Shown here: one piece after another, positions 3,549 through 36,121 of the stretch | Numbering within the stretch: position 1 is the first letter of the stretch | How the letters are laid out: every line of letters begins with the position of its first letter | Assembly: GCA_022767485.1 (NCBI GenBank) | Contig: JALEMY010000039.1 | Span: forward strand, 1-42,266 | DNA length: 42,266 nucleotides | Origin: Erysipelotrichaceae bacterium | GTDB lineage: Bacteria > Bacillota_I > Bacilli_A > RFN20 > CAG-631 | Reading direction: 5' to 3' | Notes under the pieces: model-generated | The model's input: only the letters and a program-made list of their open reading frames with translations | Told to the model about the DNA's origin: nothing | Databases searched by the model: none | Translations under genes and position numbers: made by a program

Positions 3549-5570
3549 TTATAGTTTAACTAATTCTCCACCATTTTCTCTTGATTTTTCTGCGGCAAAG
3601 GCCATTAGATGAGATTGTATAGAACATGAAAGACTAGTTTCTTGAATTTCTTTATTATCAACAATCATACGATAGAAATAATTCATCATATGAATATCGC
3701 CACCACCATGTCCTCTAAGTTCATTAGTTAATTCGCTAATTGTCCATTTTTGATCTTGCCCATTATAAACATTTAAAGTGATTGTTCCTGCTGGTTCATC
3801 ATATATAATATCACCCATCGTTCCAAAAAAGTGAGCATATCTTCCAGAATATTTACTAAATGCCGTCATCTTTAAATTGGCGCTAACGCCGTTTTTAAAC
3901 AAAATGTTAACTGATTGACTATCAACCACATCGTTATCACAATAAAATACACAACGTCCATAAGGTCCTTTTTTGATTGCTTCCATTAAAGTATCTTCAC
4001 TTAATGTTTCATCAGTTAAAACATTGTAAGGCCAACAATTTTTTGGTGAACCATCAATTTTCCATTTTTTAATGTAAATATTATATGCTGAGTATGGACA
4101 TGTTTCTACATGTGGACAATCAAGACATCTTCTTTTTGCGCCTTTTGGTGCATGCTTTGCATTAAAGAAATTTAGTTTTCCAAATGAACTTATTGAATCA
4201 CACTCGCTATTTGCAAACCATTGAAGTAAGTCTAAGTCATGACAACACTTAGCTAAAATCATCGGAGCAGTATCTTCCTTTTTACGCCAGTTACCACGTA
4301 CGAAGCTATGCGCTTGATGCCAATATGTAACATTTTCTAAATGATCGATAGATACAAGTTCACCAATAGCTTTATTATTCAATAATTCTTTAATCTTTTG
4401 CATGGCAACCGTATATCTTAAAACATGACATACAAGAATTTTTACTTTCTTTTTATCAGCAGCCTCTTGAAGCATATATAATTCTTCTTCATTTGCAGTA
4501 ATTGGTTTTTCAAGAAGAATATGATAATTTAACTCAATAGCTTTAAGAGCATGCCTTACATGATCTTGATCAAGAGTAGATATCACAATAAAATCAGCTC
4601 TTTTTTCTTTAAAGAACTCATTTTCATCAACAAAGCATTGACTTTCATCAACCATAAATTCTCTTTGATATTTTTTAAGTCTATCAGGTTTTATTTCGCA
4701 AAGAGCAGATATTTTAAACATATCAGGTCTTTCCATAAAATAACGACCATATGTTTCACCGCCACGTGAACCAACGCCAATAATTGCCGCTTTTAAAACT
4801 CTGTCAACTTTAACATTTGATTTGCCTTCTGCTTCCTTATCAACAATTTCTGCTAAAAAGACAAATGATGCCACGCTATTAGCAGCAGAGACAGCTTGAG
4901 ATTTGTTTTTATATGCTTCTGATAAAACTATACATCTTCCAGATGAAGTATATAATTTAAATTGATAAGTTTTATTCTTATCACAAACAACAACAAATCT
5001 TCCATCTTTGATTGCCCCTTTAAATGCTTCTATTCCATTGTTCATAGATTGTCTTGAAGTATATTCGTTAGATGAGCAAAGTAAAACACCATTGCTTGCA
5101 ACTAATTTAAATTCATAAATATCATCGGTAACAGAAGTGATAATCTTTCCACCTTTTTTTGCTGTTTCATTATTAATTTTTATTTCTTCAATTAAATGTT
5201 CTGGATCTTCTTCTAATACTTCAATTGGAGAAATAGCAGCGAACTTTTTAAAGGAATTTGCAGCTGCTTCACATCCTTGTTGTGATGTATAATTTGCTGA
5301 TACTACAAGCAATCTTTTGTTTTGGGCAAACAATTTGAATTGCCATAAATTATGTTTATCTTTATAAATTAAAATAGTTCCATTATCGATACTTTTCTTT
5401 ACTGTTTCAATTGCTAAAACAGCACCTTTTTCTGATTTGTATATTTCTGAAACAACTAATATTTCTCCATTTGATGCTTTTAAACGATATAGATACATAT
5501 CATTAACATGGAAAATCTCATATTTACCTAAAACAACACGATTGGTTTTTGCATTTTCTACTTTAGCCAT
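3549..5570 (-). CDS. Gfo/Idh/MocA-family oxidoreductase with N-terminal tandem DUF1508 (YegP-like) repeats
   Basis: Residues ~1-255 contain four copies of an F/YxFxLxAxNGxxLxxSexYxSxxxAxxxIxxxK pattern; residues ~258 onward VLKAAIIGVGSRGGETYGRYFMERPDMFKISALCEI Rossmann start, LLEKPITAN motif, Cys cluster RRCLDCPHVETCPYSAY. Confidence 0.85.
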   Translation of the reverse strand: MAKVENAKTNRVVLGKYEIFHVNDMYLYRLKASNGEILVVSEIYKSEKGAVLAIETVKKSIDNGTILIYKDKHNLWQFKLFAQNKRLLVVSANYTSQQGCEAAANSFKKFAAISPIEVLEEDPEHLIEEIKINNETAKKGGKIITSVTDDIYEFKLVASNGVLLCSSNEYTSRQSMNNGIEAFKGAIKDGRFVVVCDKNKTYQFKLYTSSGRCIVLSEAYKNKSQAVSAANSVASFVFLAEIVDKEAEGKSNVKVDRVLKAAIIGVGSRGGETYGRYFMERPDMFKISALCEIKPDRLKKYQREFMVDESQCFVDENEFFKEKRADFIVISTLDQDHVRHALKAIELNYHILLEKPITANEEELYMLQEAADKKKVKILVCHVLRYTVAMQKIKELLNNKAIGELVSIDHLENVTYWHQAHSFVRGNWRKKEDTAPMILAKCCHDLDLLQWFANSECDSISSFGKLNFFNAKHAPKGAKRRCLDCPHVETCPYSAYNIYIKKWKIDGSPKNCWPYNVLTDETLSEDTLMEAIKKGPYGRCVFYCDNDVVDSQSVNILFKNGVSANLKMTAFSKYSGRYAHFFGTMGDIIYDEPAGTITLNVYNGQDQKWTISELTNELRGHGGGDIHMMNYFYRMIVDNKEIQETSLSCSIQSHLMAFAAEKSRENGGELVKL

Positions 5571-5716: not shown

Positions 5717-6886
5717 ATGATTAAAGTCGATGTTATTTCTGGGTTTTTAGGAGCTGGAAAAACTACTCTTATCAAAAAAATATTTGAATCAGTATTAGAA
5801 AAAGAAAAAGTTGTTTTAATTGAAAACGAATTTGGTGAAATTGGAATCGATAGTACTTTTTTAAAGGACTCTAATATCCAAATTCAAGAAATAAATGCTG
5901 GCTGCATTTGTTGCTCTTTAGTAGGAGACTTTGCTTCTTCTATGAAAGAAGTAATCGACAGATTTGCACCAGAAAGAATTATTATTGAGCCTTCTGGAGT
6001 TGGCAAATTGTCCGATATTGTTAATGCTGTTTTAAAACTTGAAGAAGATGTTAAAATTAATATTTTAGCAACTGTTGTTGATGGCGTTAAAACAAAAATG
6101 TATTTAAAGAACTTTGGTGAATTTTTTAATAATCAAGTCGAAGCAGCTAATACAATTGTTATTAGCAAAACCGATAAAATGAGTGAAGACAAAATTGAAG
6201 AAGTAGTCAATTTAGTAAAAGAGAAAAACAATCATGCTACTTTAATTACAACACCAATTCAACAATTAGATAGTAAACAATTAGTAGATGTTTTAGAACA
6301 AAAAGTATCATTGAAAGATGAATTAATAAAAGAAATGCAATATGTTCATGAGCACGAAAATGATGAATGTTGTTGCAATCATGAACACCATCACGATGAT
6401 GATGAATGCTGTTGTCATCATGAACACCATCACGACGATGATGAATGTTGTTGCAATCATGAACATCACCACGATGATGATGAATGCTGTTGCAATCACG
6501 AACACCATCACGACGATGATGAATGTTGTTGCAATCACGAACACCACCACGATGATGATGAATGTTGTTGTAATCATGAACATCATCATCATGATGCAGA
6601 TGAAGTATTTACAAGCTATGGAAAAGAAACTACACGCTCTTATTCACATGATGAATTAAGTAATATTTTATCCACTTTAGCAAACGATGATTCTCTTGGT
6701 ATTATAATTCGTTCTAAGGGTGTTATAAAAGCTAGTGATAATGATAACTGGTATTATTTTGATTTCGTTTCTGGTGATTTTGAAATACGTCTTGGAAGAC
6801 CTGATTATATCGGTCGTATCGTTGTTATTGGATCTCACATTAACGAAGAAAAAATCGAATCTTTGTTTTTTAAAAAAGGTGAATAA
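5717..6886 (+). CDS. CobW/COG0523 family GTPase (putative metallochaperone) with internal Cys/His/Asp repeat region
   Basis: GFLGAGKTTLI Walker A, ENEFGEIGID, INAGCICCSL (CXCC metal site), IIIEPSGVG, ISKTDK; six 13-aa DECCCNHEHHHDD repeats; CobW C-terminal domain RSKGVIKASDNDNWYYFDFVSG. Confidence 0.93.
   Translation: MIKVDVISGFLGAGKTTLIKKIFESVLEKEKVVLIENEFGEIGIDSTFLKDSNIQIQEINAGCICCSLVGDFASSMKEVIDRFAPERIIIEPSGVGKLSDIVNAVLKLEEDVKINILATVVDGVKTKMYLKNFGEFFNNQVEAANTIVISKTDKMSEDKIEEVVNLVKEKNNHATLITTPIQQLDSKQLVDVLEQKVSLKDELIKEMQYVHEHENDECCCNHEHHHDDDECCCHHEHHHDDDECCCNHEHHHDDDECCCNHEHHHDDDECCCNHEHHHDDDECCCNHEHHHHDADEVFTSYGKETTRSYSHDELSNILSTLANDDSLGIIIRSKGVIKASDNDNWYYFDFVSGDFEIRLGRPDYIGRIVVIGSHINEEKIESLFFKKGE
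6362..6598 (+). repeat. Six tandem in-frame 39-bp repeats encoding DECCC(N/H)HEHHHDD
   Basis: gatgaatgttgttgcaatcatgaacaccatcacgatgat-type units, counted directly in sequence. Confidence 0.95.
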
Positions 6887-6888
6887 TT

Positions 6889-7836
6889 ATGCTTAATACA
6901 ATCCCTACCTATGTTATCTCAGGCTTTTTAGAATCTGGGAAAACAACCTTCATTAAAGACACCATTGCTTCTGATGATTTTTTTAAAAAAGGTAAAACCC
7001 TTATTCTTTCTGGGGAAGAAGGAGAAGTAGAATATGAGTCTTCTTTTTTAAAACACTATAATTGTGAAGTTTATTATTTTGATAAACAAGAAGATTTTAA
7101 TGCTCTTGCTTTGCAAAAAATAGTAAATGATGTAAAGCCGCAAAGAATCGTTATTGAATTAAATGGAATGTGGGATTTATCATTAATAGAATTTCCTGCA
7201 AACTTTAAGATATATCAGTTTATCAATTTTATTAACTACGTTTCTTTCCCAATTTATTTTGCAAACATGAGACAAAAATATTTAGATACAATAAAGCAAT
7301 CTGATGTTGTTGTCTTCATTAATGTCAAGGATGAACAACTTGATGAATTAGACAGTTATTCGTCATCATTTAAATTGACTAATTCTGCCGCACAATATAT
7401 GGTCATGGATGAAAATGGTCAATTAAAAGATGCCTTTAAAGTAGTTCTTCCATTTGATATAAATGCTCCTATTATAAAAATTAAAGATGATGATTATGGT
7501 ATTTGGTATATCGATACCTTTGATCATAAAGAAAACTATCAAGACAAAATTGTGGATATGAATGTTATGGTTGTAAAATCAAGTAAACTTCCAAAAGATA
7601 GTTTTGTAGCAGGAAGACTTGCTATGACTTGTTGTAGCAATGACATTCAATTATATGGCCATTTATGTTTAAATAACTTAAAAATTAAACTACCTGATCG
7701 TTGCTTTATTCATTTAGTTGCTAAAGTATCTTTTGAATATTCAAAGCAATACGATGAAGAAGAATGTGTATTAACTGCTTTATCAATTGAAAAGATTGCA
7801 CCATTGAGTAATCCTGTTTTAGATTTAACCAAGTAA
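6889..7836 (+). CDS. CobW-like P-loop GTPase-domain protein with C-terminal YcgQ/DUF1980 (TIGR03943)-like segment
   Basis: VISGFLESGKTTFIKDTI P-loop; RIVIELNGMWDL; no CXCC; C-terminal DSFVAGRLAMTCCSNDIQLYGHLC...ALSIEKIAPLSNPVL resembles the DUF1980 C-terminal FxxxRxxxTCCxxD...G pattern. Confidence 0.75.
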   Translation: MLNTIPTYVISGFLESGKTTFIKDTIASDDFFKKGKTLILSGEEGEVEYESSFLKHYNCEVYYFDKQEDFNALALQKIVNDVKPQRIVIELNGMWDLSLIEFPANFKIYQFINFINYVSFPIYFANMRQKYLDTIKQSDVVVFINVKDEQLDELDSYSSSFKLTNSAAQYMVMDENGQLKDAFKVVLPFDINAPIIKIKDDDYGIWYIDTFDHKENYQDKIVDMNVMVVKSSKLPKDSFVAGRLAMTCCSNDIQLYGHLCLNNLKIKLPDRCFIHLVAKVSFEYSKQYDEEECVLTALSIEKIAPLSNPVLDLTK

Positions 7837-22190: not shown

Positions 22191-23291
22191 TTAAACTCCA
22201 GTTACACCAGTATTTTCAATACCTTCAACAAACTTACGTTGTGTGAATGCATAAAGTATTAATAAAGGTAAAATTGAAATTAAAATAGATGCGGAACGAA
22301 GCCCTGCCAAATCTTCTGAATTTTCATTTTGAATACCAGAAACTTGCCCACCTTGAGAAATCTTATGTGTGAAATCAGAAAGTGCTTGAGGTAAAGTTTG
22401 GAATGTTAGTTGGTTTCCACTATATACTAAGTGACCTATAACATATACGTCATTCCAATTCCAAATAAATGCAAATAAGAAGATAACAGCGATTGTTGGA
22501 ACAGACATTTTTAAGATAACTTTTGTAAATATTTGAAAGAAGTTTGCTCCATCTATTTGTGCTGCTTCATCAAGAGCAACAGGTATCATTTTAAAGAAAC
22601 TAAAAGCGATAAAAATCAAAATAGATGAATTTATTCCTTGTCCAAATATAGTTAAAATCAATGGTGAAATTGCTGAGATTACCGAAAAGAATGAATCGAT
22701 AAAATTAGCAAGTGTTCCTTCAGCAATATTTAAAAAGTCAGATGGTAATGCCGCAGAATATTTTAGTTTGCTAAGCATCATAGATCTTGGTAAAGTCAAT
22801 AATTGAATTGGAATAATAAAAGCAAGAATTAAGCCCGCAAACCATAAGCCTTTTCCTTTAAAATTAAATCTTGCAAAGGCATATCCTGCCATACATGCAA
22901 CAACCGTTTGGAAAATAGCTGATAATAGTGAATAAATAGTTGAATTCCAAAATGTTGAAATAATAGCACCTTCAAATGATTTATCCGTTCTCCAAAGCCA
23001 CAACCCTTTAGCAGCATCCAAATAGTTTTGGAATGTTAATTGTGTAGGAATCCATACAATATCTGGATTAGTAATGTCTTCTTTAACCTTAAATGAGTCA
23101 ATGAACACACGTAAAATTGGGGACATAAAAATATAAGAAAAGATAATTAAAATTGAAATGATGATAATTTTAGGAACAATATTTTTTATTACTTTAACCA
23201 CTTTATCATATTTTTTTATAAATTTAGGAGAACTGATAATAGATTTGATATGTGCAAAATAATCTTTTAACTTATATGCAATTTTTTCCAT
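22191..23291 (-). CDS. Carbohydrate ABC transporter permease, MalG type (second pair)
   Basis: Multi-TM protein with EAA loop DEAAQIDGANFFQIFTKVILKMSVPTIAVI; terminal ENTGVTGV resembling MalG-type C-terminus. Confidence 0.92.
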   Translation of the reverse strand: MEKIAYKLKDYFAHIKSIISSPKFIKKYDKVVKVIKNIVPKIIIISILIIFSYIFMSPILRVFIDSFKVKEDITNPDIVWIPTQLTFQNYLDAAKGLWLWRTDKSFEGAIISTFWNSTIYSLLSAIFQTVVACMAGYAFARFNFKGKGLWFAGLILAFIIPIQLLTLPRSMMLSKLKYSAALPSDFLNIAEGTLANFIDSFFSVISAISPLILTIFGQGINSSILIFIAFSFFKMIPVALDEAAQIDGANFFQIFTKVILKMSVPTIAVIFLFAFIWNWNDVYVIGHLVYSGNQLTFQTLPQALSDFTHKISQGGQVSGIQNENSEDLAGLRSASILISILPLLILYAFTQRKFVEGIENTGVTGV

Positions 23292-26072
23292 TTAAAAGCC
23301 CTCCATTTCTTCTTTTTGTTTTTTCTTTGCTTTTATGCTATTTCTAACTTTATTAATTGGCGCAAATAGTTTTGCAAAAAAGTTGCTGATTTCATTGACA
23401 TGGAAGAATTCACGAATCTTTGCTTTACGTTGATTCTTCTTTCTTTTTGCCTCTTCGATTTCTTCATAATTCTTATCTTTAGAAATGAATTCACGTTCTC
23501 TAAATAGTAAAAATGAGACTAAAACAAATAATAAGACGATTAATGCTTGAATCCACGCTTCAAGAGAAATAATACCCATATTAAAACTATTGTCGTTCAT
23601 CTGATTATCTATCGTTGAGTTGATTGGGTTGACAGATGAAATACCAATTGATGAAACTTGCATTATAGTAAATAAACATACAATTAAAATAACAGATTTT
23701 ATTAAAGGATAAGTGATCGCCCAAAGCATTTGCCATTTATTTGCACCATCTATTTCTGCCGCTTCGTATAATTGTCTATTAATTTTTTGAAGAGCTGAAA
23801 TAAATAAAACAATAGGTACCCCTGTCATCCATAAAATAATGATGAAATTGCCAAATATGTTGTTAGCAAAAGTTAAAGCTTTAGGTGACAAAGCCTGTAA
23901 TATGTTAGCAAAAGTCGAACCATCTAGCGTTAACATAATGGATGACTCACCAGATGAGTTACTTTTATTTAGCATTGTCAATACAGGTCCTGAGACAATA
24001 ACAACCGGTAAGAAGTAAATTAATCTAAAGAATGTACGTCCTTTTATTTTTGTGTTTAATAACATTGCTAATACAAAACTTATAAATACGACAATTGGCA
24101 CATAAAATATTAAGTTTTTAAAGAATGTTGGAACTTGTTGGAAAGTAAAAGTAGAACTCTTTAAAAATAAAGTCTCTAGATTTTCTTTGCCTGTCCAGTT
24201 AGGAAAAGTTAAGCCGTTTTTAAATGAAAATGATACCAAAGCTGGATAGCCATCAGTAACTGTCCATTCAGAATGTGAAAAACATAGTATGATAGAATAT
24301 AAAATTGGATATAAAGTAAATACTATAAAACCAATTGCCCAAATACTTAAGAAGATATATCCAAGTTTGTTTTCTTTTGCTCTTGCTGTAACATCTTTAT
24401 GATATTTAGCTGAGCTATATTCTTTACGAATATTGTGCATAAACAATTTGTTTTCTTGTCTATGAAGTGCTTTTTTCTCCTTAAGCTTTAATTTATAATC
24501 TTTTTGATAAGATAATACTTCTGGATTTTCACTTTTAAACTTAGCGATACTATTTCTTTGATTTTCTTTTTTAATCTTGTTTAAATAAACTAAAATCGCT
24601 TTGAAATAACGAGACAACTCTTTTGATCTTATTTCTTTTTTATAAAGTCTCAATACTTCTTTCATTTCGGCATTTTTTGTAGAATCAGCCACTTTAGATG
24701 CTGTTTTAACATACGCTTTTTGCTTGATGTAGTTTTCTTTTCTTTGTTTTCTATCTTCTTTAATATCCTTAAATGATTGAACTAATTCTTGTTTTATTTT
24801 AACTTTGTTTTCTTTATGCTCTTCACCTATTTGTTTATTAATATCACCATTTGCTGTAATATTTGCAATAGCTTTTAAATACTTATTGTTAGCTTTAATA
24901 TAATCATTTTTGATTTTACTATCGACATTTACGCTATTAGTAAGACGATATTCATAGCATTCTTTTTCGTATTTTTTTTCTTCGTCTTCATAATAATCAT
25001 AAAAATAAGGGCATTTTTGAAGAACATAATCTTTTATGCTTTGAAAAATCATAGCAAAAGCGTCTTTTAATGAGCCTTTGAAACTACGAGAAATGCAATC
25101 TAAAACATTTTGTTTTAATGCATCTTCACTAGTAGTAGAAATAATAACATCATTTTCTTTTGTTGCTCTTATTGAATCCATCAATTCCTTAGCTTTATGC
25201 AACAATGTTTCATTTTGCTTAGAAATTTCTATAATATTATGGTCGTTTGTAGCAATTTCTTTTAAAAGTTCTTCTCTTTCAGAAGCTACATCCAACCCTT
25301 CTTTTTCTTGTTCTTTTAATATATCAAGGTCGATTTTCTTATAAACGTTATCAATCAATATCTTTTCTTTTTCTTTGCATTGATTAATTATAGTTTTTAT
25401 TATACTTAAAACGCTTTTTTTGCTTTCTTTTGAAAAGACAATTTGATTAGTCTCATCAATCGCTTTAAAAATCAACTCATTGAATTGTTCAATATCTTTT
25501 TTAGTTTCTTGTAACTTTTCTTGGTGGTTTATGCAAGTTTGTTGATAAAAATCCTGGAAAGATTTTTCATTTAATCTAACAGCATCTTTATTATTTTCAT
25601 AAATTTTTTCAACTAACTTATCGTATTGAAGCTTATAAGCTATTTCATCTTCCTTACATTTTTCATACCAAGAAGCCTTATTTTGTAAAACGCGATATTC
25701 GTTTTCATAAGATGTTAATGTGGCACGATTTTTAGCAATAATCTTATGAATAGACTCTTTGAATACACTGTCTTTTTCCGATTTTATAAAAGTCATACCA
25801 ATGCGGGAAAGCTTATAAACATTTTTATAAAACGTAGCCTCACATGCTAAAGAATTTGAAGAAAACAAGGCATCGATATTTTCTTTTAATGCTTCTTTAT
25901 GGGCATTATATAATTGCTCTTGAAGTGATAAAGGACGAAATGTAACTAAACATTTATAATTTGTAATTTCTTCATTTATTTTATCTTTTATTTTACTTAC
26001 TTCATGTTCAGCAATTTTTAAAGAAACTTCATAAGATTGTTGTGCTTTAATACTCAATTCATTTTTAACCAT
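23292..26072 (-). CDS. Sugar ABC transporter permease, MalF type, with ~570-aa N-terminal coiled-coil extension
   Basis: C-terminal ~360 aa: TMs plus EAA loop LYEAAEIDGANKWQMLWAITYPLIKS; N-terminal ~570 aa Lys/Glu-rich with long helices; start ATG 26072 after GGGGGGTG RBS. Confidence 0.88.
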   Translation of the reverse strand: MVKNELSIKAQQSYEVSLKIAEHEVSKIKDKINEEITNYKCLVTFRPLSLQEQLYNAHKEALKENIDALFSSNSLACEATFYKNVYKLSRIGMTFIKSEKDSVFKESIHKIIAKNRATLTSYENEYRVLQNKASWYEKCKEDEIAYKLQYDKLVEKIYENNKDAVRLNEKSFQDFYQQTCINHQEKLQETKKDIEQFNELIFKAIDETNQIVFSKESKKSVLSIIKTIINQCKEKEKILIDNVYKKIDLDILKEQEKEGLDVASEREELLKEIATNDHNIIEISKQNETLLHKAKELMDSIRATKENDVIISTTSEDALKQNVLDCISRSFKGSLKDAFAMIFQSIKDYVLQKCPYFYDYYEDEEKKYEKECYEYRLTNSVNVDSKIKNDYIKANNKYLKAIANITANGDINKQIGEEHKENKVKIKQELVQSFKDIKEDRKQRKENYIKQKAYVKTASKVADSTKNAEMKEVLRLYKKEIRSKELSRYFKAILVYLNKIKKENQRNSIAKFKSENPEVLSYQKDYKLKLKEKKALHRQENKLFMHNIRKEYSSAKYHKDVTARAKENKLGYIFLSIWAIGFIVFTLYPILYSIILCFSHSEWTVTDGYPALVSFSFKNGLTFPNWTGKENLETLFLKSSTFTFQQVPTFFKNLIFYVPIVVFISFVLAMLLNTKIKGRTFFRLIYFLPVVIVSGPVLTMLNKSNSSGESSIMLTLDGSTFANILQALSPKALTFANNIFGNFIIILWMTGVPIVLFISALQKINRQLYEAAEIDGANKWQMLWAITYPLIKSVILIVCLFTIMQVSSIGISSVNPINSTIDNQMNDNSFNMGIISLEAWIQALIVLLFVLVSFLLFREREFISKDKNYEEIEEAKRKKNQRKAKIREFFHVNEISNFFAKLFAPINKVRNSIKAKKKQKEEMEGF

Positions 26073-26085
26073 TTTGCACACCCCC

Positions 26086-28632
26086 CTATTTAATTTCCTT
26101 TACTGTCAAATTGTTGTAATCAAATTCTAATACTACTTTATCATCACCAACAACTCCATCATTAAAACTAGCATAAGTATTTCTATAACATTTAACAGAA
26201 CCATCATCATTTGTAATAACTTCACGATTAACTATTGTTTTCCCTTGTACTAATTTTAAATATGGCATAACGAAGCTACAAATTTCATTGATAATTTCAT
26301 GGTAACTTTCATATGAAGTTGAAAACCAATCTCTTGAGTTTGTATACATTATATCTTCGTTTTCCTTAGCTGTAATAATAAAGGAAGGATTCAAATTGTA
26401 TTCGATCATTTTTAGTTGTGATTCTTTATCATAAAACGAGAAATTTGCATATTCTGCGTATAAATTAACAAGTCCACTCAAAACAATTTCCATAAATGGA
26501 ACAGAGTCTGTTTCACATTGAAGTTGAGAATTATATACTGGAATATTTGTATACTCATCATAGTTTTTCCATAAGAAATCATTTGGCGTATCACCTGATA
26601 AGTTTACATAATTAGCTGCTGCTTTCGTCGATTGATAAATCGAATTTTTAGCACCAGCATAAGTTAACTTTTTACCATAATCTGGAATAACTAAAGTGGA
26701 AATACCACCTGTAGAAATACCAACATTATCGCCTAGTTGAGATAATTTTTCTGCTTGTTTGTTTAACCACTTACCAGCAACATCGGCATTTGTATAAAAC
26801 CACCATGTTATAGGTTTTGATTTATCAGCTAATAAATACTTTCCATAATCTCTTGAAAGAGCTTTTACAGTATAGCCATTAATCGAACTATATTGAAGTT
26901 CAGTAAGCATAGCATATTGTTGGTAAAAGTTAATTAGATAATCATAACTATCAGCTACTTTTACTACTTTTTTAAAGCCGCTTTTCCCACCAGCATTAGA
27001 ATTGTAATCAACCGTGCTTGGTTTAGCAACATTCATACCTTTATTTTGCCATCCATACAACGTCGATGTAATATCGTTAATGCCATCGTTATGTAAGTCA
27101 TTAAAAATATTGATAATATCATCACAACTTGTCACGTTAACTTCACTTTGACCAAAAACGCCTGATTTTGAATCGCTCATTAAGAAATCGACCTTTGGTC
27201 CTGTTTTTAATTCAACGTTTTTCTTAATTAAATTCTTTTCTTCTAAATAACTACGATACTTTAAAGCCATTCCTGTATAATTTGCAGGAAGTTCACCATT
27301 GCTTCCATCTCCTTGAAGAAAATTATAAGCCACATTTATATCGTAATCATAATAAAAACTTTCACTTTCATTTAAACAATAACTTGGTGTTTTAGATTCA
27401 ATACGATAAATATAAATTCTATTTTTTTCAAATCGAGGACGAATTGAAGCATATTCGTTTACCGTTGTTCTTCCATTGTATAATAAGCCGAAGTATTCGC
27501 TTCCTTTTTTAACATACGCTACAAAAGCATCTTGATTATTTCCATAAGAAACACCCCAAACAGGCATTGAAATATGCTTAGTTGGTACGTAACTTGGTTG
27601 TTCTACTTCATTTCTTTTGGCAAATTCTTTTTCAGTAAATACTTCACGATATGGATCTTTATACATATCAAAATATATTGCTGTCTTTTCAGAATCGTAA
27701 TATTTTATATTATCAAAACGAATCAATGCTCCTGAGCCATCAGGCACGAAAATATAGCCATCTAAATTGGTTTTAGGATTATCGACAATTGTCGATGTAT
27801 CATTGAAACTACAATTACCATTATTATCAAGTGTACAACGAATCATCTTACCACCAGATTGACCAAGTAATGGTAAAGGATATATTGCTTCAACTAAATA
27901 TTTTGATTTTCCTGTGATATCTTCATCATAAATATTTAAATCGAAGCCATCTTCAGTAAAAGTTAATCTCATATTGATATTGACTTCAAAATAATTTGAA
28001 GATGAACTACCACTTTCACTACTTTCTTGATTCTCACCTTCTTCAGATGAAGAACTATTGCTACCAATTTGTGCATAATAACTTAATTTAAACATCCATT
28101 CATTAGCATATTTATTATGTCCAAAAAAGCCAACACTAGTGTTTTCTGTTGTCGCCCAAATTGTTGATGAACTTGGATTTAATTGTTGATTAAATAATGT
28201 GAAATATAAAATTCCATTTATCTTGGCATATGTAACTGAAGATGTATCTTTTCCATCGCGAGTTGATCCGATGTCTATAGCACAAGCGTAGTATTCATCT
28301 GAATATTTTGTGATATTTGAACAATTTCTTTCTTGATCAGCTCTTTTTTCAGTATCTGCTCCTGTCGACCAAATAAATCCTGATTTTTTATTTAATATTT
28401 TTAAAATGTTTTTCTTTGTTGAATAAAAGTATTCAAAATTATTATTTTCATAAATTTTTGAATATTCACTATTTCCTGAAATAGAAACATTGTATTCATT
28501 TGGAGAAGCAGCTTCAGTTCTATTAGTTGTTTCAAGGGCATTTAAAATAACCTTATAACCGATATTGATACATGCAACAGACATTACTATAACGCAAATT
28601 ATAAAAAACCATTTTTTAATACCAGTTCGCAC
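26086..28632 (-). CDS. DUF5696-like membrane-anchored extracellular protein
   Basis: N-terminal TM; LDGYIFVPDGSGALIRFDN, DPYREVFTEKEFAKRNE, LSMPVWGVSYG-like segment, SGEYFGLLYNGRT; pattern recalled for DUF5696 proteins. Confidence 0.7.
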   Translation of the reverse strand: MRTGIKKWFFIICVIVMSVACINIGYKVILNALETTNRTEAASPNEYNVSISGNSEYSKIYENNNFEYFYSTKKNILKILNKKSGFIWSTGADTEKRADQERNCSNITKYSDEYYACAIDIGSTRDGKDTSSVTYAKINGILYFTLFNQQLNPSSSTIWATTENTSVGFFGHNKYANEWMFKLSYYAQIGSNSSSSEEGENQESSESGSSSSNYFEVNINMRLTFTEDGFDLNIYDEDITGKSKYLVEAIYPLPLLGQSGGKMIRCTLDNNGNCSFNDTSTIVDNPKTNLDGYIFVPDGSGALIRFDNIKYYDSEKTAIYFDMYKDPYREVFTEKEFAKRNEVEQPSYVPTKHISMPVWGVSYGNNQDAFVAYVKKGSEYFGLLYNGRTTVNEYASIRPRFEKNRIYIYRIESKTPSYCLNESESFYYDYDINVAYNFLQGDGSNGELPANYTGMALKYRSYLEEKNLIKKNVELKTGPKVDFLMSDSKSGVFGQSEVNVTSCDDIINIFNDLHNDGINDITSTLYGWQNKGMNVAKPSTVDYNSNAGGKSGFKKVVKVADSYDYLINFYQQYAMLTELQYSSINGYTVKALSRDYGKYLLADKSKPITWWFYTNADVAGKWLNKQAEKLSQLGDNVGISTGGISTLVIPDYGKKLTYAGAKNSIYQSTKAAANYVNLSGDTPNDFLWKNYDEYTNIPVYNSQLQCETDSVPFMEIVLSGLVNLYAEYANFSFYDKESQLKMIEYNLNPSFIITAKENEDIMYTNSRDWFSTSYESYHEIINEICSFVMPYLKLVQGKTIVNREVITNDDGSVKCYRNTYASFNDGVVGDDKVVLEFDYNNLTVKEIK

Positions 28633-31060
28633 GTAACTTCACCTCTCTCCATATTTGTTCAATAAATGTAGCAATTTGATCTAACATAACAACCACAATC
28701 GCACAAATGATAATAAATAAGACCATAAACACGATTGTTAAAACAATGTTTTTAACCGTTTGGCTAAAAGTGTAATTGTGGACTTCTAAAATTCCTAATA
28801 CTAAGATAATTCCACTACCCCAAAAAGCAGCTCCTTTTAATAAAGTTATAACAACTTGTTCGTTAAGTGTTAATCCGTAAGAAACTAAAACTGCTATTGG
28901 AAGGAAGATAATTATTGGCAATAAACTATATCCTGTAAATTTATAAATGTCTGCAAAAGTACCTTCACCATCATTTATTGCTGATACTAGATAATTACAT
29001 AAAATAAATACGCCTATAATTCCGATTGATAGGAATAATACGATCGATGGATTTAGTGTGTTTGCATTGATTATTTGGAATGGTAACGCATAGCAATAAG
29101 TGTTTAATATAATTGCAATAATTGCCAAAATGTAATAAATTGTAGCTCCTAAAATGGAACCTCTTTTCTTTGTTTTTAATTCATAGAAAGTATCGTTTGG
29201 TTTTTTAATTAATCTAAATCCGACTGTCAAGTCTTTAAACCAGCGTTTTTCACTTACTTTCTTTGTTTTTTCTTTAAACTCCTTACATTTTTTATTCTTT
29301 TTAAATAATATTTTTACACCATATATAACTACAATAATACCTATCAAACCTAAGAAAACATAAAGTAAATTTTGTTGTAAGAAATCATTTCTTAATTCCC
29401 AAAAAACATTTGAATATAAACTTCTATTTTTTGAAGTTGTAAAGTATTCAAGTGATGATTCAAAATCTAAATCATAATAATATGCTTTCCCTAAGCCATC
29501 ATTTGCTAGTACCGATAATGAATCATACTTTAAAACTTCTTCCCATGATTTTCTACTTTGCTCGTAATCATGATTATTAAAGGAAGTAATAGCATTATAA
29601 ATACTGTTCGTATAATTTGTTGGCGTAAATGTTTGTAAATAATTTGATGTGGCATCTGCAACCCATATATTATTGTTTCTATCAACGGTAATTGTCGTTA
29701 AGTTTTTAAAGAAACCAATGATGCTTGAAGTTGTGTTATTTCCAGTAAAGCCAAAGTAGAAAATGATTCTTCCTGTTGGTTCACAAACATAAATTGTACC
29801 AGTCTTACAAGCGATAAAAATCAAACCATCTTTAGTAACATATGAATCTGTAACCTGCGCTGTTCCATCACTAGTTAAAGTATATTCCAAAACCGAACTT
29901 CCACTTGTTGAATACTTATCAAAAATTAATGTCGATTCTGTCGTTAGTGAATATACTAGATTGTTATGATCAACAAAGACATTTGAAAATGGTTGTGGCT
30001 TGTCGATAATCAATTTATCTAATTGTTCTTTCGTTCCAAATTGCTTGATAATATGGTATAAGAAATCATAAGAAACTTTATTAACAACGAAAAACGAAAT
30101 AAATTCTCCAACATATGACATTTGAATCATACCAGATGATGTACCAGAGGAAGCAATAAACATATTACCTGACTTATCAACTGCTACCTTTACAGGTTTA
30201 AATGTACTTTGACCAAATGATGCTGTTTTCATAACATATTGGCCTAATGGTACTATTCTATCCTCACAATGTTCACCTACACGACATACTATTCTATTAT
30301 AAGAAATGACAGTCCCATTCAAGTCTTTTTCTTCACTTTTAAAATTGCTTGCTGTAGGAATTATTTGATAATTGTCAAAATCACTAAGTGAAGGGAATGT
30401 TTTTAACTCATACATACTATAATCTGATTTTGAATCTTCTTGAGTAGGTTCATGAATAATATCATATTGATCAAGAAGCAATTGTCTTCCTGTTTCATCA
30501 AATTGAATACGATATATTAACCCATTATATGTATATTCATAATCAGAAAGTAAAAAGGCCTCATCTTCGCTAGTGGCTTTTATTACTTCTTTATAAGAAG
30601 CAGAACCATCAGCAATATACATTTCTTTTCTTGTGACACCATTTACTGTTGTTGTTTGAATCCATAATCCAGTAGGTGTGTTGATATATTTTAATGTCCC
30701 TACCAAATCAATCTTTTTAACTGTATTTACAACATCATCTAAACGAAATTGCAAAATAAATGGTCCATTATTTAAATCACCTTGATTTAATATATAGCCA
30801 TATTCGACAAGTTTATTACCTTCATATACTTCATCGATAACCATATCTTGTGGTGAATTTAAACCAATTCTATCGTAAGTTGTTTGTGGCAAGTAGCCAT
30901 CTTGACAACGAATATATTGACCATCAGCATTTCTCGTCATCGTATAAGTCGTAGCGCTTGTCGCGTTAATATTTGTTGAAGTTGTTGGAATTAATGCTGC
31001 AATTATAATAATTATAGATAAAACTAATCCTACATAGTATTTAATATTTTTCTTTTCCAT
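28616..31060 (-). CDS. YIP1-domain membrane protein with N-terminal NHL-like beta-propeller and TPR-like segment
   Basis: Signal/TM N-terminus; propeller-like KVAVDKSGNMFIASSG, ITVDRNNNIWVADATSNYLQTF; TPR-like YEQSRKSWEEVLKYDSLSVLANDGLGKAYYYDLDFESSLEYF; C-terminal multi-TM YIP1-like domain. Confidence 0.75.
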   Translation of the reverse strand: MEKKNIKYYVGLVLSIIIIIAALIPTTSTNINATSATTYTMTRNADGQYIRCQDGYLPQTTYDRIGLNSPQDMVIDEVYEGNKLVEYGYILNQGDLNNGPFILQFRLDDVVNTVKKIDLVGTLKYINTPTGLWIQTTTVNGVTRKEMYIADGSASYKEVIKATSEDEAFLLSDYEYTYNGLIYRIQFDETGRQLLLDQYDIIHEPTQEDSKSDYSMYELKTFPSLSDFDNYQIIPTASNFKSEEKDLNGTVISYNRIVCRVGEHCEDRIVPLGQYVMKTASFGQSTFKPVKVAVDKSGNMFIASSGTSSGMIQMSYVGEFISFFVVNKVSYDFLYHIIKQFGTKEQLDKLIIDKPQPFSNVFVDHNNLVYSLTTESTLIFDKYSTSGSSVLEYTLTSDGTAQVTDSYVTKDGLIFIACKTGTIYVCEPTGRIIFYFGFTGNNTTSSIIGFFKNLTTITVDRNNNIWVADATSNYLQTFTPTNYTNSIYNAITSFNNHDYEQSRKSWEEVLKYDSLSVLANDGLGKAYYYDLDFESSLEYFTTSKNRSLYSNVFWELRNDFLQQNLLYVFLGLIGIIVVIYGVKILFKKNKKCKEFKEKTKKVSEKRWFKDLTVGFRLIKKPNDTFYELKTKKRGSILGATIYYILAIIAIILNTYCYALPFQIINANTLNPSIVLFLSIGIIGVFILCNYLVSAINDGEGTFADIYKFTGYSLLPIIIFLPIAVLVSYGLTLNEQVVITLLKGAAFWGSGIILVLGILEVHNYTFSQTVKNIVLTIVFMVLFIIICAIVVVMLDQIATFIEQIWREVKLRANWY

Positions 31061-31061
31061 A

Positions 31062-31931
31062 TTACTTAATACCTGACCTTGCCATTGTATTCATAACTTT
31101 AGATTGCATAACAATAAAGATAATCAAGTTTGGTAAAAATGTAATCAACGAGCTTGCAGCAGAAACACCCGTTGCTTGAATACCTGCTTGTGATGCTAGC
31201 AACCCTAAATAATAAGGAAGAGTTTTTAAACTTTCAGAGTTTAAATAAATCGTACTTGCTCCTCCAGAATTCCATATTGCTTGGAAAGCTAAAATTGCGA
31301 TCGTAGCAATTGTTGGTTTTACCAGTGGCATTACAAATTTTGTAATGATTTGGAAATCATTTGCACCATCTAGTCTTGCTGATTCTAATATTTCACGAGG
31401 TACCTCATCAATATTTTGTTTCATTAAAAATAAATATGTTGGAACGGCAAGAGATGGAATGATATGTACCCAAAATGTATCGATAAGTCCTAAAGCAGAA
31501 ACGATTAAATATGTTGGTATTTGCACTGCAACAGCAATAAACATTAAGGCTAGTTGGTTGATTTGAAAGAAAACTTTTTTTATCTTAAATTGCTTCTTTG
31601 AAAAAGCATAACCAGCTGTTAATGTAATAAATAAGACAGCCACAACATAAATAATGGTAATTAATAATGAATTGATTAAATATCTTAACCAAGGAAGTCC
31701 TGTAATTCGTGCTAAACGGAACAATTCTTGGAAATTAGCTAGCGTTGGATTATATACGATAATTCTTGGTGGGAAATAAAATAACTCATCAAGAGGCTTA
31801 AACGCCTGACAAAAAATATAAATAAGTGGTAAAATCATAACAGCACAAATGGGCAGCAAGATAATTAAAAACTTAATTTGACTTGCTTGAAATTTCTTGG
31901 GATTCAATTGAATAACTTGAAATGCGGCCAT
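31062..31931 (-). CDS. Carbohydrate ABC transporter permease, MalG type (first pair)
   Basis: EAA loop EILESARLDGANDFQIITKFVMPLVKPTIATI. Confidence 0.94.
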   Translation of the reverse strand: MAAFQVIQLNPKKFQASQIKFLIILLPICAVMILPLIYIFCQAFKPLDELFYFPPRIIVYNPTLANFQELFRLARITGLPWLRYLINSLLITIIYVVAVLFITLTAGYAFSKKQFKIKKVFFQINQLALMFIAVAVQIPTYLIVSALGLIDTFWVHIIPSLAVPTYLFLMKQNIDEVPREILESARLDGANDFQIITKFVMPLVKPTIATIAILAFQAIWNSGGASTIYLNSESLKTLPYYLGLLASQAGIQATGVSAASSLITFLPNLIIFIVMQSKVMNTMARSGIK

Positions 31932-32917: not shown

Positions 32918-35900
32918 TTAAATTGGACAACTCGATGTTGAAGCATTACCACCACTTACATTATTTTTAAAGTTTTCTTGGCAAGCTTCAATCCAATCAA
33001 AGTTTCTTAAAATATATTCTCTATTTGCAACGCCGTTTTTTGAGTCATAATAGCCAAATTCATCCATTTTTCTTTGAATTTCTCTATCGATAATTACTTT
33101 TTGTAAGTCGATTGCTTCACCAACAGTTAGCTTTCCTGTTGAATTACCAGAAGATGATGTACCAAATACAACTGTATTCCATATATCAGACAAGCCTCTT
33201 TGAAGCATGTATTGTCCTGGTATTTGTTGTAAATCTATAATCCATTTAACTTGTTTTAATACAACTTTTCTAACTTCTGAATCAATTGGTAATGATTGTG
33301 CTGCATCTAAATTAGCAGAAAACCAAACTACCGATGGGCCAAATGTTGATTGAAGTGCTTCAGTGAAGGCTTCTTGTACACTAGTTGACATCCACCATTG
33401 TAAAAATAACCACGCTTCATCAATCATCTTTGAATTGTTAAATATCATAGCTGATGAACCATTCGATATATACCAACGAGATATTTCATCTTCTTCTCCA
33501 TCATGATTTAAATCCTTATATGTACCATCTTGCAAAACTTCTTGCTTGATTCCTGGAATTTGATGAACTGACCATTTACCTAAAAGTTCTGGTGCAACAT
33601 ATTTTAATTGTAAATACATACCAACATCACCAATACCTAAAGGATATGTCCCATATCTAAAGTGGTTGTAAAATGAACCAACTTCAGTTGGTAATGCATA
33701 AATCGTATATAAATCTGTTAATAATTTAATGCCTTCATATGTATTTTGGTTTCTTAAATCAGTTGTAAAAGCATCTGATGATAAAATCGAACCGTTGTTT
33801 TGTAAAATAAATTGAGCGGTTGCTGATAAAGATTTTAATGACCCTGAAGCGCTAGCTGAATAATAAAAGTTTCTGCCAGCTGATTGTAAACGAGATAAGA
33901 TACCAACAACTTCTTCCCATGTTTGTGGAATTGGTAGTGCCTCCCCTTTATCTCCCATTACATTCATAATATCATCACGAGAAAACATTAATTCTGCACT
34001 TGTTGATTCTGGTAAAGAATAAAATTTGTCATTATATAGCATTGACATCAATTGTCCACGAGGCATATTATCTACAACATCGAAATAATAAGGAGTAAAT
34101 CCCCAATAATTATTTTTATATTTCCAAGTGTCATCAAAATCGCTAAGTGGATAAGCAGCATCACCACGAAGAGCAAATTCAAATGCTCTTCCAGAGTTAA
34201 TTCCTAAAACTAAATCTGGAACCGTATTTGCAGCATAGGCATAAATCAAGTTGTCTTCACTAGGCATTTGACGAATATTAACCTTAATACCATTAGGAAA
34301 TTCTTCACATTTAGTATTTGGTGTAAATTCATTATCAGCGTATGTTTGTAAAATATCATTGTATGCTTGCGAACGTGCTGACCAAATATTAAGTTCGCCA
34401 TCATTTAAAATTGTTTTATATTTATCCGATGTAAATGTTTGTCCTAAAGTGACAAGAGAAGAATAAAATGATGAAAAGAAAGAAGAATTGCTAGGTCTAA
34501 TCTTTGATGAGTCATTTGTCACATAGATTGTATCAAGAACCATATTAGTATTTTGTAAAGTGTTTGCCGTATCAGCTACAAGCTTTGCTAAACAGTTATC
34601 ACCTGATGAAAATAAATTAAGTTTTAAAGGCAAGTCATTTGGCTCATCTATTAACTCATCAATAATTTCTCTCATTCTTTGGAAATATGATAATACACTT
34701 GATGATTTATCGTTACCAACGAAATCATAAAGTTTATTATATGAATCGATAATGATGTTTTTATAAGCCTTTAAAACGGACAATGTTTCAGGAAAATATT
34801 GTACTAATTCATATTCTTTATTTTGATCGATTGTTGCTCCAGTAATTTTTCTAATTTGAATTGAAAAATCATTGATATCATCATAAACCGCCATCAAATT
34901 GTTGTAAACTTCAAGTAGTGGTTCAATTGTTGCGGTAACAGAAATAGTATTATGCCCTGATTTTAAATAAAAATAGTAAGGATTTCCATCTTTATCACTA
35001 ACAACATGGTTAGCATAATAAGGACCTGTTGTTGGAAAAGAATAATTGACTACTTCTTTGAAAGGAACTTCTCCATTTATTTCTATTTTTCTAAATAATG
35101 GAAAGTTATCGTTGTCGTTATAATAGTGGAATGTTAATGGATAAAATCCTGCTGATTCAACGTTTAAATCCCAAGAGATTTCTTGTCCTGATTGATCCCA
35201 ACCTGATGTAACATTCAATAGTTTACGATTATAATCATAAGGAGTAACACTAGGTGATTGTTCGTTTGCTACTGTCACATCGTTAGTGTTTTTACTTGTA
35301 TATTCGATAGCATTTAATTCAATGTTATCATTACCTTGGCTTTTTGATTCTTGTTGTTGATAATATTCACTATATGATAATTGATTCGTAACAGGAATTA
35401 AAGTTATTTTACCAATATAAAAATAATCATCAGAAAGGTTAGTAATAGTAATTGTAGGATTGATTGATGATAATTCAAAAACAAGTGGTTGCGATGTTGT
35501 ATATTGCGATTCATAAATACCTTCTTTTTGCCAAGATAAAATTCGCTTTTGCCTTGGAGACATTTGATCTCCATACTTTGAAGTATAAGAATCAAAGTTT
35601 TTATTGCCATTTGGCAGCGTTGAAATGTTATCTTCAAATTGTAAAGGTAGTAAGATTGTATTTGCTTCATTAAATGGAGAAGCACCATCGATTTCTACTT
35701 TAACAAGCGCAGAAGAAGCAAAAGTAGATGGAATAAAATATTCCACCTCTAAACGATATCTTCCAAACTTTGCTGAAGTAAAATCGCTCGTTTGATATGT
35801 GATTGAAGTTTGCTTCATTGCAACTACAGCATTGGCATCACTTGGCACATATTCTGTCTCGATAAGTGATGAATTAATAGGATATCCACTAGGGCTTATT

Positions 35901-36121
35901 TCTTGCTTACAATCACTTGATAAATAATTATCTTGATATTTTTTATCTACTCGTTGAATATAATTGTAATAATCATTTTCAACTCCTTCCAATCGACTAT
36001 TGATCTTGTTAACACTAATTTGTAGTTGAGCAGGATCAATAGCTGTTGTTGACAAAGATGATGAACAACTTGCTAATAATATCAAAATAGCAAAAGACAT
36101 CATCGCTTTTTTCAACTCCAT
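32918..36121 (-). CDS. Extracellular solute-binding lipoprotein with large N-terminal jelly-roll-like modules
   Basis: Lipobox LLASC; two CBM-like segments (GRYRLEVEYFIPSTFASSALVKVEIDGASPFNEA and AGFYPLTFHYYNDNDNFPLFRKIEINGEVPFKE); C-terminal half typical SBP: PDLVLGINSG, PQTWEEVVGILSRLQSAGRN, SNGSSAMIFNNSKMIDEAWLFLQWWMS. Confidence 0.9.
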   Translation of the reverse strand: MELKKAMMSFAILILLASCSSSLSTTAIDPAQLQISVNKINSRLEGVENDYYNYIQRVDKKYQDNYLSSDCKQEISPSGYPINSSLIETEYVPSDANAVVAMKQTSITYQTSDFTSAKFGRYRLEVEYFIPSTFASSALVKVEIDGASPFNEANTILLPLQFEDNISTLPNGNKNFDSYTSKYGDQMSPRQKRILSWQKEGIYESQYTTSQPLVFELSSINPTITITNLSDDYFYIGKITLIPVTNQLSYSEYYQQQESKSQGNDNIELNAIEYTSKNTNDVTVANEQSPSVTPYDYNRKLLNVTSGWDQSGQEISWDLNVESAGFYPLTFHYYNDNDNFPLFRKIEINGEVPFKEVVNYSFPTTGPYYANHVVSDKDGNPYYFYLKSGHNTISVTATIEPLLEVYNNLMAVYDDINDFSIQIRKITGATIDQNKEYELVQYFPETLSVLKAYKNIIIDSYNKLYDFVGNDKSSSVLSYFQRMREIIDELIDEPNDLPLKLNLFSSGDNCLAKLVADTANTLQNTNMVLDTIYVTNDSSKIRPSNSSFFSSFYSSLVTLGQTFTSDKYKTILNDGELNIWSARSQAYNDILQTYADNEFTPNTKCEEFPNGIKVNIRQMPSEDNLIYAYAANTVPDLVLGINSGRAFEFALRGDAAYPLSDFDDTWKYKNNYWGFTPYYFDVVDNMPRGQLMSMLYNDKFYSLPESTSAELMFSRDDIMNVMGDKGEALPIPQTWEEVVGILSRLQSAGRNFYYSASASGSLKSLSATAQFILQNNGSILSSDAFTTDLRNQNTYEGIKLLTDLYTIYALPTEVGSFYNHFRYGTYPLGIGDVGMYLQLKYVAPELLGKWSVHQIPGIKQEVLQDGTYKDLNHDGEEDEISRWYISNGSSAMIFNNSKMIDEAWLFLQWWMSTSVQEAFTEALQSTFGPSVVWFSANLDAAQSLPIDSEVRKVVLKQVKWIIDLQQIPGQYMLQRGLSDIWNTVVFGTSSSGNSTGKLTVGEAIDLQKVIIDREIQRKMDEFGYYDSKNGVANREYILRNFDWIEACQENFKNNVSGGNASTSSCPI

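Follow-up and report, generated by a model that had tools for sequence, protein, structure and literature searches.

The usual picture of a type I importer is a compact assembly of two permeases and two ATPases, regulated mainly through the ATPase. Escherichia coli MalF is a CUT1 permease with a cytosolic N terminus; that N terminus is short, and the protein has a large periplasmic P2 loop. A short N-terminal region is a typical, rather than a defining, trait of CUT1 permeases. That one ATPase energises several importers is established in Firmicutes (PMC7658222), and the ATPase of OpuA has a positively charged membrane-proximal helix-turn-helix (PMC10710835). The window, ie the whole 42,266-nucleotide stretch of DNA analysed here, encodes a permease which shares with MalF, SugA and UgpA the core of six transmembrane (TM) helices, the EAA loop and an adjacent MalG-type partner and substrate-binding protein, but which differs from them in a 569-residue cytosolic N-terminal domain, predicted to be helical. 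Its extra mass is thus cytosolic, in contrast to that of E. coli MalF. The features of the locus are as follows.

22191-23291, minus strand: partner MalG-type permease, 366 residues, directly downstream of the extended permease
23292-24365, minus strand: CUT1/MalF-type permease domain with six TM helices, EAA motif and a basic helical C-terminal tail (Pfam BPD_transp_1, TM scan, Foldseek)
24366-26072, minus strand: N-terminal cytosolic extension, residues 1-569; predicted all-helical bundle of no known family
24576-24794, minus strand: conserved basic segment of the extension, residues about 427-499, membrane-proximal in sequence (charge and invariant columns; helices 409-459 and 464-515)
26086-28632, minus strand: DUF5696 protein, directly upstream of the extended permease
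28616-31060, minus strand: NHL-like/Yip1 membrane protein
31062-31931, minus strand: MalG-type permease of the second pair, 289 residues
31943-32902, minus strand: MalF-type permease of the second pair, 319 residues; no Pfam match, GlcT/PotB-like in NCBIfam
32918-36121, minus strand: substrate-binding protein, 1067 residues, with the binding-protein domain at residues 607-916

The reading frame of the extended permease (23292-26081, minus strand) is uninterrupted over 929 codons from a GTG start. A start at the ATG at 26072 is preferable, because an AGGGGGG ribosome-binding sequence precedes this codon and its methionine is invariant in all four homologues. The resulting protein has 926 residues (26072-23292), and the end coordinate of the initial annotation, as well as its placing of the first permease TM near residue 570, agrees with this. 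TM helix 1 starts at residue 570 (LGYIFLSIWAIGF), while TM scoring places it at 580. The assignment of the C-terminal part to the MalF type, also proposed earlier from the letters, was borne out. Pfam BPD_transp_1 (PF00528) matches residues 657-859 of the 929-residue form, with a marginal score of 27.2 bits against a gathering threshold of 26.4, and the EAA coupling motif (EAAxxDGA) is intact as YEAAEIDGA (YEAAEIDGANKWQ) and invariant in the four homologues. A Foldseek search with the full-length model matched its permease part to SugA (7caf_A, E 4.7e-6) and to subunits of MalFGK2 and PotABC, which is the type I importer fold. A MalG-type partner (22191-23291) and a binding protein (32918-36121) lie alongside, as in other CUT1 systems.

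What is not typical of CUT1 is the N terminus. Most orthologues in the class have 7-50 residues before TM1, and those without a long extension have up to about 80 (7-80 in all), against 569 here, so that the length is, as had been noted, far beyond the CUT1 norm. Six helices were scored C-terminal to the extension and none within it; its highest 19-residue Kyte-Doolittle mean is 0.76, and K and E make up 27% of its residues. The earlier description of a K/E-rich region with no TM therefore holds. The absence of a TM, together with a basic run preceding TM1, places the extension in the cytosol, and the AlphaFold2 helices agree with a long helical extension on that side of the membrane.

Firstly, a protein of this length could be the product of a sequencing or assembly error joining two genes, which the initial annotation had named as a possible objection. 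The same fusion, 917-950 residues long, is present in all four sequenced genomes of the family (two genera), and the three other genomes were assembled independently of that of the window. Their homologues are of 924 residues (same genus) and of 917 and 950 residues (second genus), with no stops inside, and the codon-position bias is that of coding DNA. Comparison of the four family assemblies gave nothing in favour of an artefact, and we consider one to be practically out of the question. Nor was a conserved start codon for a free permease found ahead of TM1 among the family homologues, and internal translation initiation was rejected on that ground. The 569-residue extension is a genuine, lineage-specific part of a single polypeptide.

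The length of the extension is held within 557-583 residues across the four family members; its sequence is held much less closely. Within the genus, identity is 34% in the extension compared with 69% in the permease, and between genera it is about 22% compared with 55%. For the closest pair (G002/G003) the dN/dS of the extension is about 0.23 (dN 0.198, dS 0.874), the corresponding values for the permease part being dN 0.057 and dS 0.886. Per codon of the extension, this pair shows 0.22 changes at position 1, 0.12 at position 2 and 0.37 at position 3. This pattern and the dN/dS indicate that the extension is translated and constrained. It is under purifying selection, yet diverges several times faster than the permease.

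A profile built from the four extension sequences was searched against 279 genomes of the order, and matched the four family members and one protein in G511. The latter match sits in an ABC-F ATPase and was taken as chance. Among 395 genomes sampled from the class the sole match was the window's own genome. A scan of named genomes gave one true relative, a rabbit-gut Bacilli MAG. In the permease tree the four extended proteins group together with full support, and their clade has a long stem; it is nested in a larger group, the rest of which has N termini of 12-47 residues.

The initial annotation called the extension a coiled coil. Its helical character was upheld, but a single coiled-coil rod was not: heptad (3.5-residue) periodicity is weak, with no dominant peak at 3.5 and with local periods that vary, and no sustained 3.5-residue hydrophobic periodicity was found over most of the length. 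AlphaFold2 gave a mean pLDDT of 83.9 for the full-length protein and, for the extension alone, 83.8 with a pTM of 0.67, from an alignment of the extension that is only four sequences deep. In the model the extension is a bundle of about 15 helices, the longest of 56 residues; in the full-length model the helix that continues as TM1 is preceded by a short break at 558-562. A folded multi-helix bundle, rather than a simple rod, is thus predicted, and "coiled coil" is a loose description.

It had also been allowed that the extension might prove to be a common annotated domain of CUT1 permeases. Comparison with Pfam, NCBIfam and PDB sequences at relaxed thresholds gave chance matches only, and Foldseek of the extension against PDB and BFVD gave nothing significant. 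Weak Foldseek matches of the full-length model to F-BAR and SMC folds were set aside as generic long-helix likeness. Internal repeats were not found in the extension, and no catalytic-looking set of invariant residues was seen among the four homologues. The extension is predicted, with confidence, to be an orphan helical fold with no known relative. The anatomy of the protein is solid: it is a real, well-supported, lineage-specific variant of a CUT1 permease carrying an orphan helical domain.

The best-conserved block of the extension, residues 427-499, is strongly basic in all four proteins. Lysine or arginine is invariant at positions 427, 438, 444, 445, 452, 456, 460, 478, 479, 491 and 499, and residues 451-510 carry a net charge of +4 to +7 per 30 residues in each of the four. 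A conserved basic segment near the membrane in sequence brings to mind a regulatory gate, in which these helices would respond to ionic strength, to the charge of the lipids or to a ligand by inhibiting the ATPase or releasing it. Extended cytosolic domains do control ProP, BetP and OpuA, and OpuA resembles the present case in that a type I importer carries an additional cationic element, cytosolic and close to the membrane (PMC10710835). However, the added element of OpuA is short and lies in the ATPase, and it has no likeness in sequence or fold to the extension, nor has any other such regulatory domain. The analogy is one of function only; the basic segment is a fraction of the 569-residue domain, and what is transported is probably a glycan rather than an osmolyte. 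We consider a gate possible, but rather unlikely.

The gene for the extended permease is the sixth of seven tightly packed minus-strand genes, in the order binding protein, MalF-type permease, MalG-type permease, NHL-like/Yip1 protein, DUF5696 protein, extended permease and MalG-type partner. The order of the DUF5696 and permease genes is conserved across the order. In relatives, operons of the same type lie near GH94/SOGP or GH2 genes, which makes a glycan the likely substrate, as judged from gene context. The first 600 residues of the binding protein have no Pfam assignment; in its G009 homologue, weak Golvesin_C/CBM35 matches fall in that N-terminal region.

That the extension is a scaffold tying the second pair to the first had been suggested earlier, and the operon does combine two pairs of permeases with a single binding protein. 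This reading is weakened by the genome of a sister family (G009, f7), which has the same seven-gene operon and keeps both pairs with an unextended permease of 356 residues; a separate homologue of the extension was not found in it. This argues that the extension is required neither for basic transport nor by the second pair, and we regard a scaffold of this kind as very improbable.

None of the seven genes encodes an ATPase. The standard UgpC/MsmX-like ATPase of the genome, 387 residues and of normal build, is on another contig, and a second UgpC/MalK-like ATPase of 605 residues adjoins its own permeases (L111:128-1945, G000:C53). In the 605-residue protein, a K/E-rich stretch of about 210 residues is inserted near residue 117, after the Q-loop region and ahead of the LSGGQ signature.

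The reading we prefer, at a probability of about one half, is that the extension serves as a cytosolic platform for docking or clustering on a CUT1 glycan importer, or as a modulator of a shared MsmX/UgpC-like ATPase, and takes no part in translocation. The initial annotation had likewise proposed that the extension could recruit an ATPase or a cytoplasmic enzyme, or act as a gate or sensor. A MalF-type permease would have acquired the 569-residue domain at its N terminus on the stem leading to a single family of gut Bacilli. A short hinge (about 558-562) would connect the domain to TM1, next to the coupling region, and the domain's conserved basic helices (427-499) may lie against the inner leaflet or against an acidic partner. 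From there it could dock or cluster cytosolic partners, or tune the engagement of the shared ATPase, encoded outside the operon. In favour of such a role are the single open reading frame in four of four genomes, the dN/dS, the intact permease core, the conserved basic segment and the folded bundle, and also the lack of an ATPase in the operon, the established sharing of ATPases and the recurrence in the order of extensions or insertions on the cytosolic face. On the other side, comparisons with Pfam, NCBIfam, PDB and BFVD gave no domain homology pointing to a function, and the fast divergence counts against a platform, being compatible also with weakly constrained accretion.

Extended permeases are found elsewhere in the order. 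Those of G517, G464 and G429 occupy the same position after the DUF5696 gene and have soluble N-terminal extensions, but these are shorter (222 and 211 residues in G517 and G464, family f5, and 147 residues in G429, family f6) and the proteins fall in a separate clade of the permease tree. In a direct comparison covering f5, no similarity could be detected between the f5 extensions and that of the window (hhalign probability 0.1%, A2 vs A4). Another permease, in G005, has about 300 soluble N-terminal residues. The long permeases examined elsewhere in the class, a sample of the closest matches rather than a census, are either MalF-MalG fusions or proteins with at most about 170 additional residues, which often include TM segments. 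Permeases of 615-650 residues elsewhere in the class were accordingly rejected as extended permeases, being fused MalF-MalG proteins with short N termini. An enrichment of the order in cytosolic extensions and insertions on importers is suggested.

This recurrence bears on a third alternative, that in this order long charged helical segments are tolerated or build up on the subunits of importers, and that the extension is one such accretion with no dedicated function. Apparently unrelated extensions on orthologous permeases (211-222 residues in f5, 147 in f6), on a MalG partner (285 residues) and on the G005 permease (about 300), helical insertions in ATPases of the order and the fast divergence of the extension itself are what accretion would produce. 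It accounts poorly for a length kept within 557-583 residues in all four family members, for a dN/dS near 0.23, and for the well-defined bundle and conserved hot spots of the predicted structure, and we think it unlikely. A platform for cytosolic partners, or for the ATPase, remains our preferred role. Still more tentatively, the type I sugar and polyamine importers of the order may repeatedly have gained large unrelated helical modules, at the MalF N terminus, the MalG N terminus and the helical subdomain of MalK/PotA, which together would form a docking or regulatory layer throughout the lineage; the 569-residue domain would be the largest purely soluble case seen.

The presence of such a domain, large, folded and conserved, at the N terminus of a permease would suggest that sugar uptake has a cytosolic layer of organisation or control which the papers found do not describe; literature searches on the extension or on DUF5696 found nothing relevant. 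The extension was gained in one family and has unrelated counterparts in other parts of the order. It offers an orphan helical fold as a soluble fragment of 60 kDa.

Several other proteins of unusual build were observed. The MalG-type partners of DUF5696-linked permeases in f5 have about 285 and 160 residues before TM1 (L099:3425-5140, L100:3572-4798), and two f5 MalF-type permeases of 920 and 1042 residues (L089:3003-5765, L090:2781-5909) have N-terminal regions of 600-700 residues comprising several TM segments and a soluble part. PotA-like ATPases of G002 and G003 (L118, L121; 544 residues) and of G008 (L127; 514 residues) have insertions of about 130-190 residues between the Q-loop region and LSGGQ. 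Fused MalF-MalG pairs of about 615-640 residues recur in other orders of the class (L085, L087, L088, L148, L150-L152). In the window itself, two copies of DUF1508 and a GFO/IDH/MocA oxidoreductase are fused in one protein of 673 residues (3549-5570, minus strand), and a 315-residue protein (6889-7836, plus strand) combines a weak cobW-type nucleotide-binding match with a DUF1980 C-terminal domain and is adjoined by a full CobW protein (5717-6886).
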